Below are positions 19,438 through 39,429 of a stretch of DNA of 64,000 nt, in pieces. A program made the position numbers and the translations under genes. The number at the start of each line of letters is the position of its first letter. The first letter of the stretch is position 1. Under the pieces are notes generated by a model. That model was not told the origin of the DNA. It saw only the letters and a list, made by a program, of their open reading frames with translations, and did no database searches. The stretch is from Lacipirellula parvula (GTDB lineage: Bacteria; Planctomycetota; Planctomycetia; Pirellulales; Lacipirellulaceae), in contig NZ_AP021861.1 of NCBI RefSeq assembly GCF_009177095.1, forward strand, positions 3,764,501 to 3,828,500. Reading direction: 5' to 3'.

Positions 19438-20844
19438 CTAGGCGACGAGGCGGCGGTAGAGTTCGAGCGTACGGCGAGCCATCGTTTCCGCTTGGTAACG
19501 ATCGACGATCGCCTGCCGACCGCGCTCGCCAAAGCCGGCGGCCGCTTGCGAGTCGGCGAGCATAGCCGCCAGCTTCGCCGCCAGATCGTCAGGGCTCAGC
19601 GGTTCATGCAAGACGCCGCCGCCGGTATCGGCGAGCAATTCTGGGAACGCCCCGTGAGCCGGCAGCACAACGGGGACGGCGTTGGCCAGCGCTTCAAGAA
19701 TCGACAGCCCTTTGCTCTCGCGGTAGACGGTCGGCACGGCCATCACGTGGAGTGACTGGAGGAATTTGATTTTCTCTGTGCGGTCGAGCTCACCATGGTA
19801 GGTGAAACGGCCGGCGAGGGGTCCGCGCGCGACGCGCTGCTCAATCTCGGCGAGGTACGCGCGATCGCCGCCGCCGAGATAGCCGGCAGCGTGGATTTCG
19901 AATGGGGGCGTTGGTCCCTCTCCCCCGAGGGGAGAGGTCAGGTGAGGGGTTTGCTGTTGCTGCGACGGGTTCGGGCTTGTGGAAGATGGATGCGTCGGGA
20001 ATCCCTCCCCTGGCCCCTCCCTGCGAGGGAGGGGGATTTTGGCCAGCCGCTCCGCCGCGTCGATAAGGAGGTGCAGCCCCTTGTCGTAGCAAATGCGGGC
20101 GAAGTAACCGATCCGCCGCGGGGCGCCATTGGCGCTCGGCTGGCGCTGGCCATGGCCTGCGAGGTCGAGGCCGTGCGGGATGACCTCGATCCGCTCGCGC
20201 GGCACGCTCATATAATCCGCCATGAAATCGGCGAAGTAATTGTTGAGCGCGACGAAGGCGTCGACGTCAGCGGCCCGCTCGCGGATCAGCTGTCGGGCTT
20301 GCTCGTAGTGGGGCGGCGTCAGCTTTTCGAGAAAGATGTCTTCGCCCGAGAGCGAGCAGACGATCGGCGGCCCGCCGCGCTGGCGGATGAGCCGCGCGAG
20401 GCCGAGCATCATCGAATTCGAAAGGTGCACGACGTCGGGCTTCGCTTCGTCGACGAGCCAATCGACAAGCTTTTCAAGTTCCTTCCGCTGGTTGCCGAGC
20501 TCGCCCCGCAACATCGAGACGGTCATATCGCCAAGCTTCGACGCATCAACGCTCGCGGCGTTCTTGGTCGCTAGATTGAGCAGCTTCGGGTTGTCGAGCC
20601 AACCGTCGAGCCACCGCGGCGTGCGGCGGAAGATTGGGAACTTCTGCTGCAAGTAGGCGTTGATGCCGCCAAAGAAGACGCGCGGTTCGCTGACGTCGAC
20701 TTCGTCGGTCCGAATCGGCGTGTAGATCGGCGCGAGGATCACGTCCTCGCCCAGCTTCAACAGCGCAGCAGCCAGCGTGTTGTCGTGGAGACAACTCCCG
20801 CAGTACATGCCGGCGGCGCCGGCGGCGAGGTAGGCGATGCGCAT
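19438..20844 (-). CDS. GT4-family glycosyltransferase with in-frame repeat insertion
   Basis: 468 residues. The N-terminal Rossmann lobe begins MRIAYLAAGAAGMYCGSCLH, and the C-terminal lobe has the nucleotide-sugar signature around ESKGLSILEALANAVPVVLP (E-x7-E). It transfers sugar from an NDP- or GDP-sugar; acceptor unknown. Residues ~268-309 (IPLPRREGPGEGFPTH through TSPLGGEGPTPPF) are low-complexity and coincide with a CCCTCCC/GGGAGGG palindromic repeat in the DNA (19914-20040), placed in the loop between a helix (LHLLIDAAERLAKI) and the next strand (FEIHAAGYLG) of the C-terminal lobe. The frame and all other family motifs are kept. Confidence 0.88.
   Translation of the reverse strand: MRIAYLAAGAAGMYCGSCLHDNTLAAALLKLGEDVILAPIYTPIRTDEVDVSEPRVFFGGINAYLQQKFPIFRRTPRWLDGWLDNPKLLNLATKNAASVDASKLGDMTVSMLRGELGNQRKELEKLVDWLVDEAKPDVVHLSNSMMLGLARLIRQRGGPPIVCSLSGEDIFLEKLTPPHYEQARQLIRERAADVDAFVALNNYFADFMADYMSVPRERIEVIPHGLDLAGHGQRQPSANGAPRRIGYFARICYDKGLHLLIDAAERLAKIPLPRREGPGEGFPTHPSSTSPNPSQQQQTPHLTSPLGGEGPTPPFEIHAAGYLGGGDRAYLAEIEQRVARGPLAGRFTYHGELDRTEKIKFLQSLHVMAVPTVYRESKGLSILEALANAVPVVLPAHGAFPELLADTGGGVLHEPLSPDDLAAKLAAMLADSQAAAGFGERGRQAIVDRYQAETMARRTLELYRRLVA
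19914..20040. repeat. Dispersed palindromic repeat read in frame inside a glycosyltransferase gene
   Basis: Ends are CTCTCCCCCGAGGGGAGAGG and CCCTCCCTGCGAGGGAGGGG, two GC hairpins bracketing a T/G-rich middle. It adds about 42 residues to the protein without frameshift. Confidence 0.75.
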
Positions 20845-36809: not shown

Positions 36810-37223
36810 CTATTCCCGGGCGTCCGGCGGAACAATGAGGATCGACGCCCCGCCGCTGGTAACGGAAATCGCATAAAACCCCTCGTCCGGGGCCGCCCCC
36901 AGGGCGGGCGCCAGGTAGGGGAATACCGCCGGCACTTCGGCCCGACACTCTTCCAAAGAAAAGGCCACGGCGAAGACGGTCGTCGCCTCGCTCTCCTCGT
37001 CGACATCGTCCGACTGGTGGAGAATCGCATCTTCGACCGTCTCCTCGCCGAGCCAACTGCGGGCGATCTCGCCGCCGATGGCGTCTTCGCAATCGAGAAG
37101 CACCACCACCGGCTCGTCGACCTGGCGTTTCACTGCATCGTCGTAGGCCTCGAAGACAAGCGGCAGGCTGGTTTCAAGGAGCCATTGCTGGGCTTCAAGA
37201 GCGGCGTCGAGGTCGTCGGACAT
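36810..37223 (-). CDS. Small acidic hypothetical protein
   Basis: 137 residues from the ATG of MSDDLDAALEAQQWLLETSL. Acidic overall, with a strand-rich core (EPVVVLLDCEDAIGGEIARS, TVFAVAFSLEECRAEVPAVF, FYAISVTSGGASILIVPPD). No signal peptide, membrane helix or catalytic motif is seen. I recognise no family. It is preceded by CTGAACCC-type short repeats instead of a Shine-Dalgarno sequence. It is 150 bp upstream of the secretin-N-domain gene on the same strand. Confidence 0.6.
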   Translation of the reverse strand: MSDDLDAALEAQQWLLETSLPLVFEAYDDAVKRQVDEPVVVLLDCEDAIGGEIARSWLGEETVEDAILHQSDDVDEESEATTVFAVAFSLEECRAEVPAVFPYLAPALGAAPDEGFYAISVTSGGASILIVPPDARE

Positions 37224-37360
37224 GAGGGAGGGTTCAGGGGGTTGGGGTTCGGGGCTCAAGAGAAGGGCGTTGGGGCTGCGATTGACGGGTTGGCTACATC
37301 GTCGGGAGTTGCGGGGGATTGCTCAAGGGGCGGAATGGGAGTGAGAGGAAAGGCGGGCGC
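37224..37360. other. Spacer between the small-transcript terminator and the acidic-protein gene
   Basis: GGGTTCAGG/GGGTTCGG-type short repeats adjacent to the start codon, otherwise featureless. Confidence 0.4.
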
Positions 37361-37398
37361 AAAAAAAGAGCCCGGTCGCCAACGAGGGCGACCGGGCT
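37361..37398 (-). terminator. Strong intrinsic terminator (minus strand)
   Basis: On the minus strand AGCCCGGTCGCC and GGCGACCGGGCT form a 12-bp perfect stem with a six-base loop, followed by CT and seven T residues. It ends the small transcript to its right and insulates the acidic-protein gene. Confidence 0.92.
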
Positions 37399-37428
37399 GC
37401 GATCAACTCTTTTGCTTTGAGAGCAGGC

Positions 37429-37503
37429 TCACGATTTTGAGGTCGATGAGCGGGCGCTCAGAAGCAGGTGGTGGCGCCTCCGAAGGCACCCGCCGGTGGT
37501 CAA
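37429..37503 (-). CDS. Possible 24-codon mini-ORF (second of an overlapping pair)
   Basis: TTG start within TTGA, overlapping the stop of the first mini-ORF. The predicted peptide is LTTGGCLRRRHHLLLSARSS followed by TSKS, with an Arg/His/Leu-rich core. The RNA over it can form a hairpin with a TTCG loop (GGTGCC/GGCGCC) and another, TGAGCG/CGCTCA. It could be a leader peptide, a small protein, or non-coding; nothing else supports translation. Confidence 0.35.
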   Translation of the reverse strand: MTTGGCLRRRHHLLLSARSSTSKS

Positions 37504-37544
37504 CGGAAATCACCACCCAACTGGCGTATATGACTATGGTTCAA
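37500..37544 (-). CDS. Possible 14-codon mini-ORF with strong Shine-Dalgarno sequence
   Basis: On the minus strand AAGGAGGTGG precedes a TTG by seven nt from AGGAGG, and the frame encodes MNHSHIRQLGGDFR then stop. The strength of the ribosome-binding site is the main argument. Its stop overlaps the start of the second mini-ORF (TTGA). Confidence 0.4.
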   Translation of the reverse strand: MNHSHIRQLGGDFR

Positions 37545-37653
37545 CAGACCACCTCCTTCCTTACTGGGTTCTAGCGGCTGCGGCTCCTGCCAGAGGCTCC
37601 GCAAGCGGCCGGGTCAGCCCGTCGTGCCTGCGTTCGGCACGACCTACAACTGC

Positions 37654-37659
37654 ATTATA
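37654..37659 (-). promoter_or_regulatory. -10 box for the small transcript
   Basis: Minus strand reads GCGTTTATAATGCAG with a consensus TATAAT. A TTGCCT at 19-bp spacing is a weak -35. Confidence 0.55.
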
Positions 37660-38031
37660 AACGCAGGTGCGGAAAAAAAGGCAAGCTCAATCTGGCTAAG
37701 ATTGCCAATTTTTACCGCGCTGCACGAAAATAACGACGCAGCAGGGTGAACCTTGGTTCGCGCTGGGGCGACTATTTTCTGTTCCATTGAACTGAATACA
37801 GGAATGCTTAACCACTAAGGCTCTAAGGCGCGAACGGCACACGAAGAGATAAAGAAGAGTTCGAGCAAATATTCATTAACTTTGAATTGGAATTGAAAGT
37901 GGAGTGCAATTTCTAATTCATGCTTTGTCTCACTCGCGTATTCATTCTTCGTGAGAATCTTCGTGGCTTCGCGCCTTAGTGGTTAGTCTTCACTCACGCT
38001 TCGGCATTTGGGATCGGTTAGGGTATCAGGG
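37660..38031. other. Intergenic region with a long inverted repeat
   Basis: AT-richer than the surroundings. It contains an inverted repeat at 37808-37986 (left TTAACCACTAAGGCTCTAAG, right CTTCGCGCCTTAGTGGTTAG, each with ACGAAGA/TCTTCGT). No gene seen. Confidence 0.6.
37808..37986. repeat. CCACTAAGGC inverted-repeat element (~180 bp)
   Basis: The ends are inverted copies with an AT-rich centre, resembling a miniature inverted-repeat element. No target-site duplication was recognised. Confidence 0.75.
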
Positions 38032-39429
38032 ATGAATCGTCGACAACTTCAAAAGCTGGGCGTACCGCCGAAGTTTGCGGCCGCGGCGATTGATGCGCTG
38101 CGTGACGCCGCGTCGCAAGACTTGGGGTTCGGGCTCAAAGGAAAACGAGCGAAGGAGCTGGTGCAGGACGTGGTGCGCACTCCGCAGACGTTCGTGAACG
38201 ATCCGGTCTGGGGGAAGCTCGCGAGCGAGATGCTTGGCTACGAGCCGATCGAGCTGCGCGAGCCGATCTCGTATCGGACCTGGGGCGATGAAATTGATCC
38301 GGCGGCCCACGCGCAAATGCGGGATGCGTGTCGCGTGCCGTCTGCCGTGGGTGCAGCGCTGATGCCTGATGCGCACGTCGGCTATGGTTTGCCGATTGGC
38401 GGCGTATTAGCGTGCGAGAATGCCGTCATTCCTTACGCAGTCGGGGTCGACATCGCGTGCCGGATGAAGCTGTCAGTGCTCGACGTGCCGGTGGAATCGC
38501 TCGCGGAGCGGCGCGAGCCGTTTCGCGTGGCGATTGAGAAAGGAACGCGGTTCGGAGTGGGTTGCGAGCACAAGCCGAAGCAAGCGCACGAAGTGATGGA
38601 CGCCGATTGGAGCGTCTCGCGAATCACGCGCGAGCGGAAAGATACCGCGTGGAAACAACTCGGCACGTCGGGCTCGGGAAATCACTTTGTGGAGTTCGGC
38701 GTGTTGACGCTGGCCGAGCGCGACGAAGAACTGGGGCTCGATGCGGGCGAGTATGTGGCGCTACTGAGCCACAGCGGAAGCCGTGGCGCCGGGGCGGCCG
38801 TTTGCAGCACGTACAGCGCGATCGCGCAATCCCGACTGCCGAGCGAACTGAAACAACTGGGGCGGTTGGCCTGGCTCGATCTTAAGAGCGAGGCGGGCCA
38901 AGAGTACTGGGCGGCCATGAATCTCATGGGCGACTACGCGGCAGCGAATCATGCGGTCATTCACCGCATGGTTTCCCACCTGCTAGGGGCGGAGATCGTT
39001 GCTGGCGTCGAGAACCACCACAACTTTGCGTGGATCGAACAGCATGGCGGACGCGATGTGGTGGTCCATCGCAAAGGGGCGACTCCGGCTGGGGCGGGCG
39101 TACTCGGCGTGATTCCGGGTTCGATGGCGGACCCTGCGTTCATCGTGCGCGGCCGCGGCAACGCCGAGAGTCTCGACTCGGCGTCGCATGGCGCGGGGCG
39201 GCAGATGTCGCGGACGAAGGCGAACGATATGTTCCGCTTCTCACAAGTGCGAAAGGAACTGGCCGAGCGCGGCATCGAGGTGCTGTCGGCCGGTTCGGAC
39301 GAGGCACCGGGCGTTTACAAAAATATCAGACACGTGATGGCAGCACAGCAGGACTTGGTGAAGATCGTGGCGCAGTTCGATCCGAAGATCGTGAAAATGT
39401 GCGGCGACGGCAGCCGGGCGGAGGATTGA
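38032..39429 (+). CDS. rtcB: RtcB family RNA-splicing ligase
   Basis: 465 residues, a GTP- and Mn-dependent ligase joining 2',3'-cyclic phosphate/3'-phosphate to 5'-OH RNA ends. Motifs: PDAHVGYGLPIGGVLA and PYAVGVDIACRM (metal site), LGTSGSGNHFVE, LSHSGSRGAGA, GVENHHNFAW, VIPGSMADPAF and DSASHGAGRQMSR, in which His386 is the guanylylated residue. It starts at the ATG of MNRRQLQKLG. There is no archease or RtcR gene next to it, although the NtrC-like regulator 1.5 kb downstream belongs to the same enhancer-binding class as RtcR; it has its own kinase, so I do not link them. Confidence 0.95.
   Translation: MNRRQLQKLGVPPKFAAAAIDALRDAASQDLGFGLKGKRAKELVQDVVRTPQTFVNDPVWGKLASEMLGYEPIELREPISYRTWGDEIDPAAHAQMRDACRVPSAVGAALMPDAHVGYGLPIGGVLACENAVIPYAVGVDIACRMKLSVLDVPVESLAERREPFRVAIEKGTRFGVGCEHKPKQAHEVMDADWSVSRITRERKDTAWKQLGTSGSGNHFVEFGVLTLAERDEELGLDAGEYVALLSHSGSRGAGAAVCSTYSAIAQSRLPSELKQLGRLAWLDLKSEAGQEYWAAMNLMGDYAAANHAVIHRMVSHLLGAEIVAGVENHHNFAWIEQHGGRDVVVHRKGATPAGAGVLGVIPGSMADPAFIVRGRGNAESLDSASHGAGRQMSRTKANDMFRFSQVRKELAERGIEVLSAGSDEAPGVYKNIRHVMAAQQDLVKIVAQFDPKIVKMCGDGSRAED

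Follow-up and report, generated by a model that had tools for sequence, protein, structure and literature searches.

The window analysed here is a 64,000-nt stretch of Lacipirellula parvula DNA, and the element of interest occupies about 300 nt of its minus strand. Upstream and divergent from it, a homologue of the RNA ligase RtcB (PF01139) is encoded at 38008-39429 on the plus strand. Downstream, on the same strand as the element, lies a gene for a 149-aa protein (36810-37259, minus), for which a Pfam search returned no match, followed by one for a 1034-aa protein with three stretches matching Secretin_N (PF03958; 33552-36656, minus). The original prediction had placed here a self-contained small transcript with two overlapping mini-ORFs. 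All the elements that it listed are present at the locus; their strand, which it left unstated, is minus. The features are as follows, each with its basis:

37679..37684 (-), possible -35 element TTGCCT, weak, with a 19-nt spacer; TTGC recurs in part of the host's own family, by eye
37654..37659 (-), -10 promoter element TATAAT; from the sequence
37620..37644 (-), P1, the 5' hairpin; double-sided changes in the own family
37574..37610 (-), P2 hairpin, with apical loop CUGGC at 37589-37593; limits by eye, loop able to pair with GCCAG of the ORF
37547..37560 (-), very strong Shine-Dalgarno (SD) sequence GGAAGGAGGTGGTC; pairing to the canonical 16S tail
37500..37544 (-), mini-ORF with a TTG start, 14 codons (MNHSHIRQLGGDFR) and a TGA stop; start and stop conserved in the loci read
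37521..37525 (-), GCCAG inside the ORF, probably paired with the P2 loop as the 3' side of a pseudoknot; own-family co-variation and family permutation
37511..37517 (-), P5, 5' strand, formed by the last ORF codons; family permutation tests
37429-37503 (-), second ORF with a TTG start and 24 codons, overlapping the mini-ORF as TTGA; from the sequence
37473..37490 (-), P4 hairpin with a UUCG loop; covariation over 54 sequences
37467..37473 (-), P5, 3' strand; family permutation tests; its own-family sequence is complementary to the SD as well
37457..37465 (-), P6, 5' strand (own family), UGCUUCUGAG/CUCAAAGCA pairing; by eye
37414..37421 (-), P6, 3' strand (own family), UGCUUCUGAG/CUCAAAGCA pairing; by eye
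37361..37398 (-), intrinsic terminator, a 12-bp stem followed by T7; double-sided pair changes

Compared with 200 dinucleotide shuffles, the minus strand from 37364 to 37648 folds better than every one (z -3.8). Elsewhere in the window AAGGAGGTG occurs at one site, 20065-20073 on the plus strand, with 0.4 sites expected by chance in all.

Our searches identify this locus as one member of a predicted RNA family spread across the Planctomycetota. BLAST with a 321-nt query found the element in 22 of 59 genomes, the host's included, and all 22 belong to the host's own family. Covariance model R1, built from 20 of these 22 loci, matched 37 of 43 genomes at the level of the family and 86 of 246 at that of the order; R2, built from 54 order-wide sequences, matched 267 of 397 genomes of the class; and R3, built from 68 sequences across the phylum, matched 91 of 392 genomes at phylum level, including 55 from beyond the class. 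The outside-class matches were read in 32 of the 55 genomes, and the other 23, many with E values near 1e-4 to 1e-3, may include chance matches. As a control, R3 was run on 33 genomes from other phyla, all chosen for an exact match to a short pattern derived from the RNA, and it matched one (E 7.8e-4). The listed stretches of the scan with that pattern (117 in all) include Rhodopirellula rubra and others matched by the pattern alone; those in other phyla are presumed to be chance. Each matching genome carries one copy, except for two genomes with two each (G191 and G388, in the class scan). Filters were strict in the large scans and some families are poorly fitted by the models, so a missed genome is not proof of absence. 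A lack of conservation in relatives was to count against the original prediction; the opposite was found.

The alignments are subsets of these loci. A1 and A2 omit L011 (at a contig end) and L018 (divergent in its 3' half); A3 and A4 hold 55 and 54 of 82 loci, with L061 omitted from A4; and A5 holds 68 of 75 candidates. L063, from the same genome as L018, was dropped. In L018 (genome G031), where the 3' half of the RNA is divergent, a unit of about 50 nt with GGCTTCGCCAAG stands in tandem copies between the RNA terminator and the next gene.

All 172 loci that were read, which carry 30 family labels (the taxonomic labels of the genomes, entered by hand), have the same arrangement: a near-maximal SD, then an NTG start, then a stop 8 to 18 codons on. 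The SD takes the form (G)AAAGGAGGTG(A/G/T)TC. Start codons are GTG in 104 loci, TTG in 58 and ATG in 10, and stop codons are TGA in 65, TAG in 59 and TAA in 48; the start lies 5 to 6 nt past GGAGGT in 148 of 152 loci. Since start candidates were restricted to NTG codons 2 to 11 nt after GGAGGT that open 6 to 22 codons, and since four starts were picked by hand (L294, L318, L322 and L338, with several NTG codons nearby or unusual spacing), the choice of start was not blind; L270 and L274, whose flanks are cut by contig ends, were also placed by hand. With starts so chosen, the first stop falls at codon 8 to 18 in frame in 152 of 152 loci, versus 12 of 152 in each of frames +1 and +2. Random NTG codons in the flanks reach their first stop at 8 to 18 codons in 186 of 1,227 cases (15%), and 45% of shuffled ORF bodies contain a premature stop. 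The second ORF fares differently. The pair named in the original prediction does exist at this locus, and its first member is found in 172 of 172 loci, but the overlapping NTGA start of the second recurs in only 24 of the 172 (19 of 37 in the own family), and the ORF, where present, is anywhere from 2 to 75 codons long. We therefore rejected a coupled second ORF, neither overlap nor length being conserved, and a coupled protein pair is disfavoured with it.

The strength of the SD calls for comment. In 133 of 152 loci it could pair without interruption over 13 positions or more, G-U included, with the canonical 16S 3' tail, which may not be the host's. A pattern search for the 16S tail with GGNTGGATCACCTCCTT gave no match in the host genome, from which the rRNA may be missing or whose own tail may differ from the canonical one. 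Separately, GGATCACC, a look-alike of the 16S 3' tail, lies 3' of the mini-ORF and P5 in L071-L075, L284 and other Pirellulales and f22 loci; it was not seen in the printed f21 and f23 loci. A helix of this length could make the RNA a ribosome or anti-SD decoy that parks 30S subunits, the ORF serving to clear the rare ribosome that initiates. The at least 13 bp in those 133 loci and the rarity of ATG (10 of 172) are what such a decoy would be expected to have. However, the tail pattern to which it would bind is without a match in the host genome, one gene copy would have to be expressed at a very high level, and the enclosure of the stop codon by P5 (see below) would be left unexplained; we consider the decoy quite unlikely.

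Of the helices, P4 and P5 both covary. Over 54 sequences, 91.8% of the cells of P4 are paired, and its covariation score of 0.345, against 0.227 for shuffled and at most 0.121 for slid alignments, was reached by none of 500 shuffles. Five of its seven pairs change on both sides, a count that 36 of the 500 shuffles reach by itself. Permutation between families gave z -1.3 for P4 and is uninformative here, presumably because the families share its letters. P5 joins the last codons of the ORF to the strand just past P4, so that the stop codon is enclosed. Comparing own and cross pairing locus by locus gave a weak signal for P5, 26 of 171 loci falling below 5%, with a median of 0.24. The decisive test was the family permutation with one representative from each of the 30 families: z was 6.0, and every one of the 20 draws had p<1/2000 (z 4.6 when the helix limits were set differently). 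For control pairings z lay between -0.4 and 0.6.

The P2 loop and the CCAG of the ORF form a probable pseudoknot. CUGGC/GCCAG is replaced by UUGGC/GCCAA in four own-family loci (L014, L016, L021 and L022), and the pairing of loop with ORF gave z 2.6 in the family permutation (median p 0.007, worst draw 0.099). A hairpin loop holds the stop codon in 157 of 172 loci, but also 508 of 755 random flank triplets, and only the family permutation speaks for this hairpin (z 3.2, median p 0.002, worst 0.039). The pseudoknot and the stop-codon hairpin are both moderately supported. P1 is recognisable class-wide, by eye, and in a set of 20 own-family sequences four of its six predicted pairs change on both sides at least once; the same holds for 10 of the 12 pairs of the terminator stem. 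Sequestration of the SD by a downstream anti-SD strand is plausible in the own family, in which the pairing is strong, but was rejected as a phylum-wide feature (z 0.3 over 30 families). Competing helices were recognised in the own family only, by eye.

We then asked what kind of conservation the mini-ORF displays. Among 87 nearest-neighbour pairs the start codon differs in none, and the stop codon differs in 26, always to another stop. Within the body of the ORF the synonymous share of single-base codon changes is 0.30 in frame, versus 0.24 and 0.28 out of frame, and changes by codon position stand at 152:158:172 in the same 87 pairs. Codons 2 to 6, which lie ahead of the pseudoknot and P5, have 76, 93 and 97 changes by position, without clear bias. 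Thus the mini-ORF has no synonymous excess that would mark conservation at the amino-acid level. In 110 of 172 loci we recognised a shared nucleotide motif, CCAR...RGGYGG. Its reading phase is 2 in the own family (f1), f15, f22, f3 and others, but 0 in f21, in f23 and, of the four f26 loci, in three; despite the phase change, the ORF still closes within a few codons. An open frame and the stop class persist through indels and a change of phase.

These data bear on two opposite explanations. In the first, the element is a purely structural non-coding RNA, whose SD-like, NTG and stop letters are pairing or protein-binding letters that are never translated. Many conserved letters of the ORF are indeed explained by P4, P5 and the pseudoknot. 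Yet frame and stop class outlast both the indels and the phase change, the three stops interchange, starts may be GTG, TTG or ATG, and the other frames behave differently, all of which makes this explanation very improbable. In the second, the peptide is the product: a conserved micropeptide of 10 to 14 residues, made from a structured mRNA that controls its own translation. 'QRGG' looks stable in several families, family-level motifs can be written ([S/C/N]-Q-R-G-G or N-Q-R-[RW]-L), RGG is constant between many genera and the ORF is present in 172/172 loci. Moreover, the RNA structure could hide weak selection on a peptide by suppressing synonymous change. Against this, synonymous excess and codon-position bias are both absent, lengths range from 8 to 18 codons, and f21, f23 and f26 read the same nucleotides in another phase, which argues that the C-terminal residues are set by the RNA rather than the other way round. 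A conserved peptide was rejected for want of either bias, and a peptide product is, in our view, unlikely. Taken together, the pattern points to selection that keeps the translation event and not the peptide; with the frame kept and the peptide not, being read by ribosomes may well be part of the RNA's job.

The element also appears to be a gene in its own right. The interval from 85 to 135 nt upstream of the SD end was searched for TATAAT, and 35 of 37 own-family loci have it with no more than one mismatch: the best match has no mismatch in 26 and one in 9, compared with 0.01 and 0.17 for shuffled intervals. A terminator-like hairpin with a T-run lies 40 to 260 nt past the stop in 135 of 168 loci, versus 3 of 168 after shuffling, although terminators are scarcer in f21 (4/12), f48 (1/8) and f23 (10/14). 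The terminator hairpins of L254-L259 (f23 and f26) and of L340 have a recurrent GTATCT. Across the order (60 loci), the most frequent neighbour cluster occurs in at most 13 loci, and crude ORF calls place a downstream ORF at 57 of these loci, the nearest one being encoded on the opposite strand in 30. Within the own family the neighbourhood is steadier. There, 15 of 22 loci have the 149-aa gene next on the same strand, at about 35 to 550 nt from the terminator; it was not found in the other 7, one of which is interrupted by the end of a contig. Among 11 further loci (one a repeat genome), 7 have the gene. ORF clustering, rather than inspection gene by gene, puts an rtcB homologue upstream and divergent in about 14 of the 22. 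With a promoter of its own (in the own family), a terminator of its own and no neighbour fixed across the order, the element is predicted to be an independent gene and not a leader, its product a structured RNA about 280 nt long, and the self-contained small transcript that had been proposed is well supported by sequence.

This bears on the most familiar interpretation of such anatomy, in which mini-ORF and terminator form a leader or attenuator for a downstream gene, here the 149-aa gene. A short ORF with an SD, an intrinsic terminator and, by eye in the own family, competing helices are found, the anatomy of attenuators, and the 149-aa gene does follow in 15/22 own-family loci and in 7/11 of the further ones. 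But neither the own-family nor the order-wide neighbour analysis found a fixed downstream gene. The gap from terminator to gene is variable even where the gene is present, and the gene was not found in 7/22; order-wide, 30/57 downstream ORFs face the other way and no neighbour cluster exceeds 13/60 loci; and the RNA keeps its own terminator. Since there is no common downstream gene beyond part of the own family, we regard a leader as decidedly improbable. The leader peptide, coupled protein pair and regulatory RNA, rated as equal possibilities in the original prediction, are thus not equal: the leader is disfavoured by its neighbours, the pair by its unconserved second ORF and a peptide product by the lack of synonymous bias, and what remains is a structured RNA with a mini-ORF predicted to be translated.

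Our preferred reading is that the element encodes a stand-alone structured RNA with a translated mini-ORF, and that this RNA would be a trans-acting regulator linked to the capacity for translation; we give this a probability of about one half. The near-maximal SD would recruit ribosomes strongly, and there would be room for an initiating ribosome between the SD and the point where the pseudoknot and P5 begin. Ribosomes would then read about 13 codons and terminate inside the P5/P4 fold, where a ribosome at the stop would hold P5 open. Ribosome traffic would in this way open both P5 and the pseudoknot between P2 and the ORF. As no gene follows in a conserved manner, the output would probably be the RNA itself, through its conformation, lifetime or partners, acting in trans. 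A more far-reaching version, which we put forward as tentative and would ourselves sooner doubt than assert, is that this is a phylum-wide, housekeeping-like RNA whose conserved function is being translated, over a frame of 8 to 18 codons that is free in sequence, and which reports or buffers translation capacity in trans. We know of no precedent for a stand-alone, translation-gated RNA.

The family is absent from Rfam 15, as the original prediction, for which no known RNA family fitted, would have it. No Rfam 15 family reached its gathering threshold at the locus, the best sub-threshold match being Pxr with 16.2 bits of the 80 required. Elsewhere in the window there are two matches to Acido-Lenti-1 RNA (RF01687, 46 and 44 bits), at 709-755 on the minus strand and 859-903 on the plus strand, about 100 nt apart. 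Two known RNAs were considered and rejected as identities for the element. The 6S model (RF00013), which matches 5 of 14 control genomes, has no match in the host genome at E<=0.001, and tmRNA is a separate gene there (G000:C1:815651-816015, 158 bits); neither 6S nor tmRNA was found among the matches at the locus up to E 10. In the open-access literature, judged mostly from titles and abstract openings, no report of this RNA was recognised. Weinberg et al. 2010 (PMC2864571) tabulate the Rhodopirellula-1 motif, without an Rfam accession, as a candidate from Proteobacteria and Planctomycetes whose RNA status is given as '?' (ambiguous), probably cis-regulatory. Like our RNA it is a candidate motif reported from Planctomycetes, and the two, compared by that description only, may or may not be identical.

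An SD is also reported for only a small fraction of Planctomycetes genes (PMC5397173), which makes a near-maximal SD conserved across the phylum the more surprising. If our reading is right, a single-copy RNA has gone uncatalogued throughout a whole phylum. Its ORF, very short and seldom started by ATG, is easily overlooked by gene finders, and RNA annotation misses the family because it is absent from Rfam 15. It would also be a natural case in which initiation, frame and termination are preserved and the peptide is not, making 'translation as a signal' separable from the peptide.

Three classes of known RNA invite comparison. tmRNA and 6S RNA are stand-alone RNAs present at about one copy per genome and coupled to the ribosome or to the polymerase; the RNA described here is likewise stand-alone and present at about one copy per genome. 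The trpL and erm leaders are translated leader RNAs that sense ribosomes. A further translated leader reported to sense ribosomes is the E. coli TopAI-YjhQ uORF (PMC12121999). Like our RNA, the trpL, erm and TopAI-YjhQ leaders have a strong SD, a short ORF (about 10 to 30 codons), competing helices and an intrinsic terminator. Their action, in contrast, is in cis on a fixed downstream gene, whereas here the downstream gene is unconserved across the order, and so is the peptide. Finally, SgrS/SgrT and RNAIII are dual-function small RNAs that encode a peptide. Small RNAs with both functions are also the subject of PMC5521070. These too, like our RNA, are stand-alone small transcripts with an internal ORF and an intrinsic terminator; the ORF described here differs in having 8 to 18 codons, in being part of the fold and in showing no selection at the level of the peptide.
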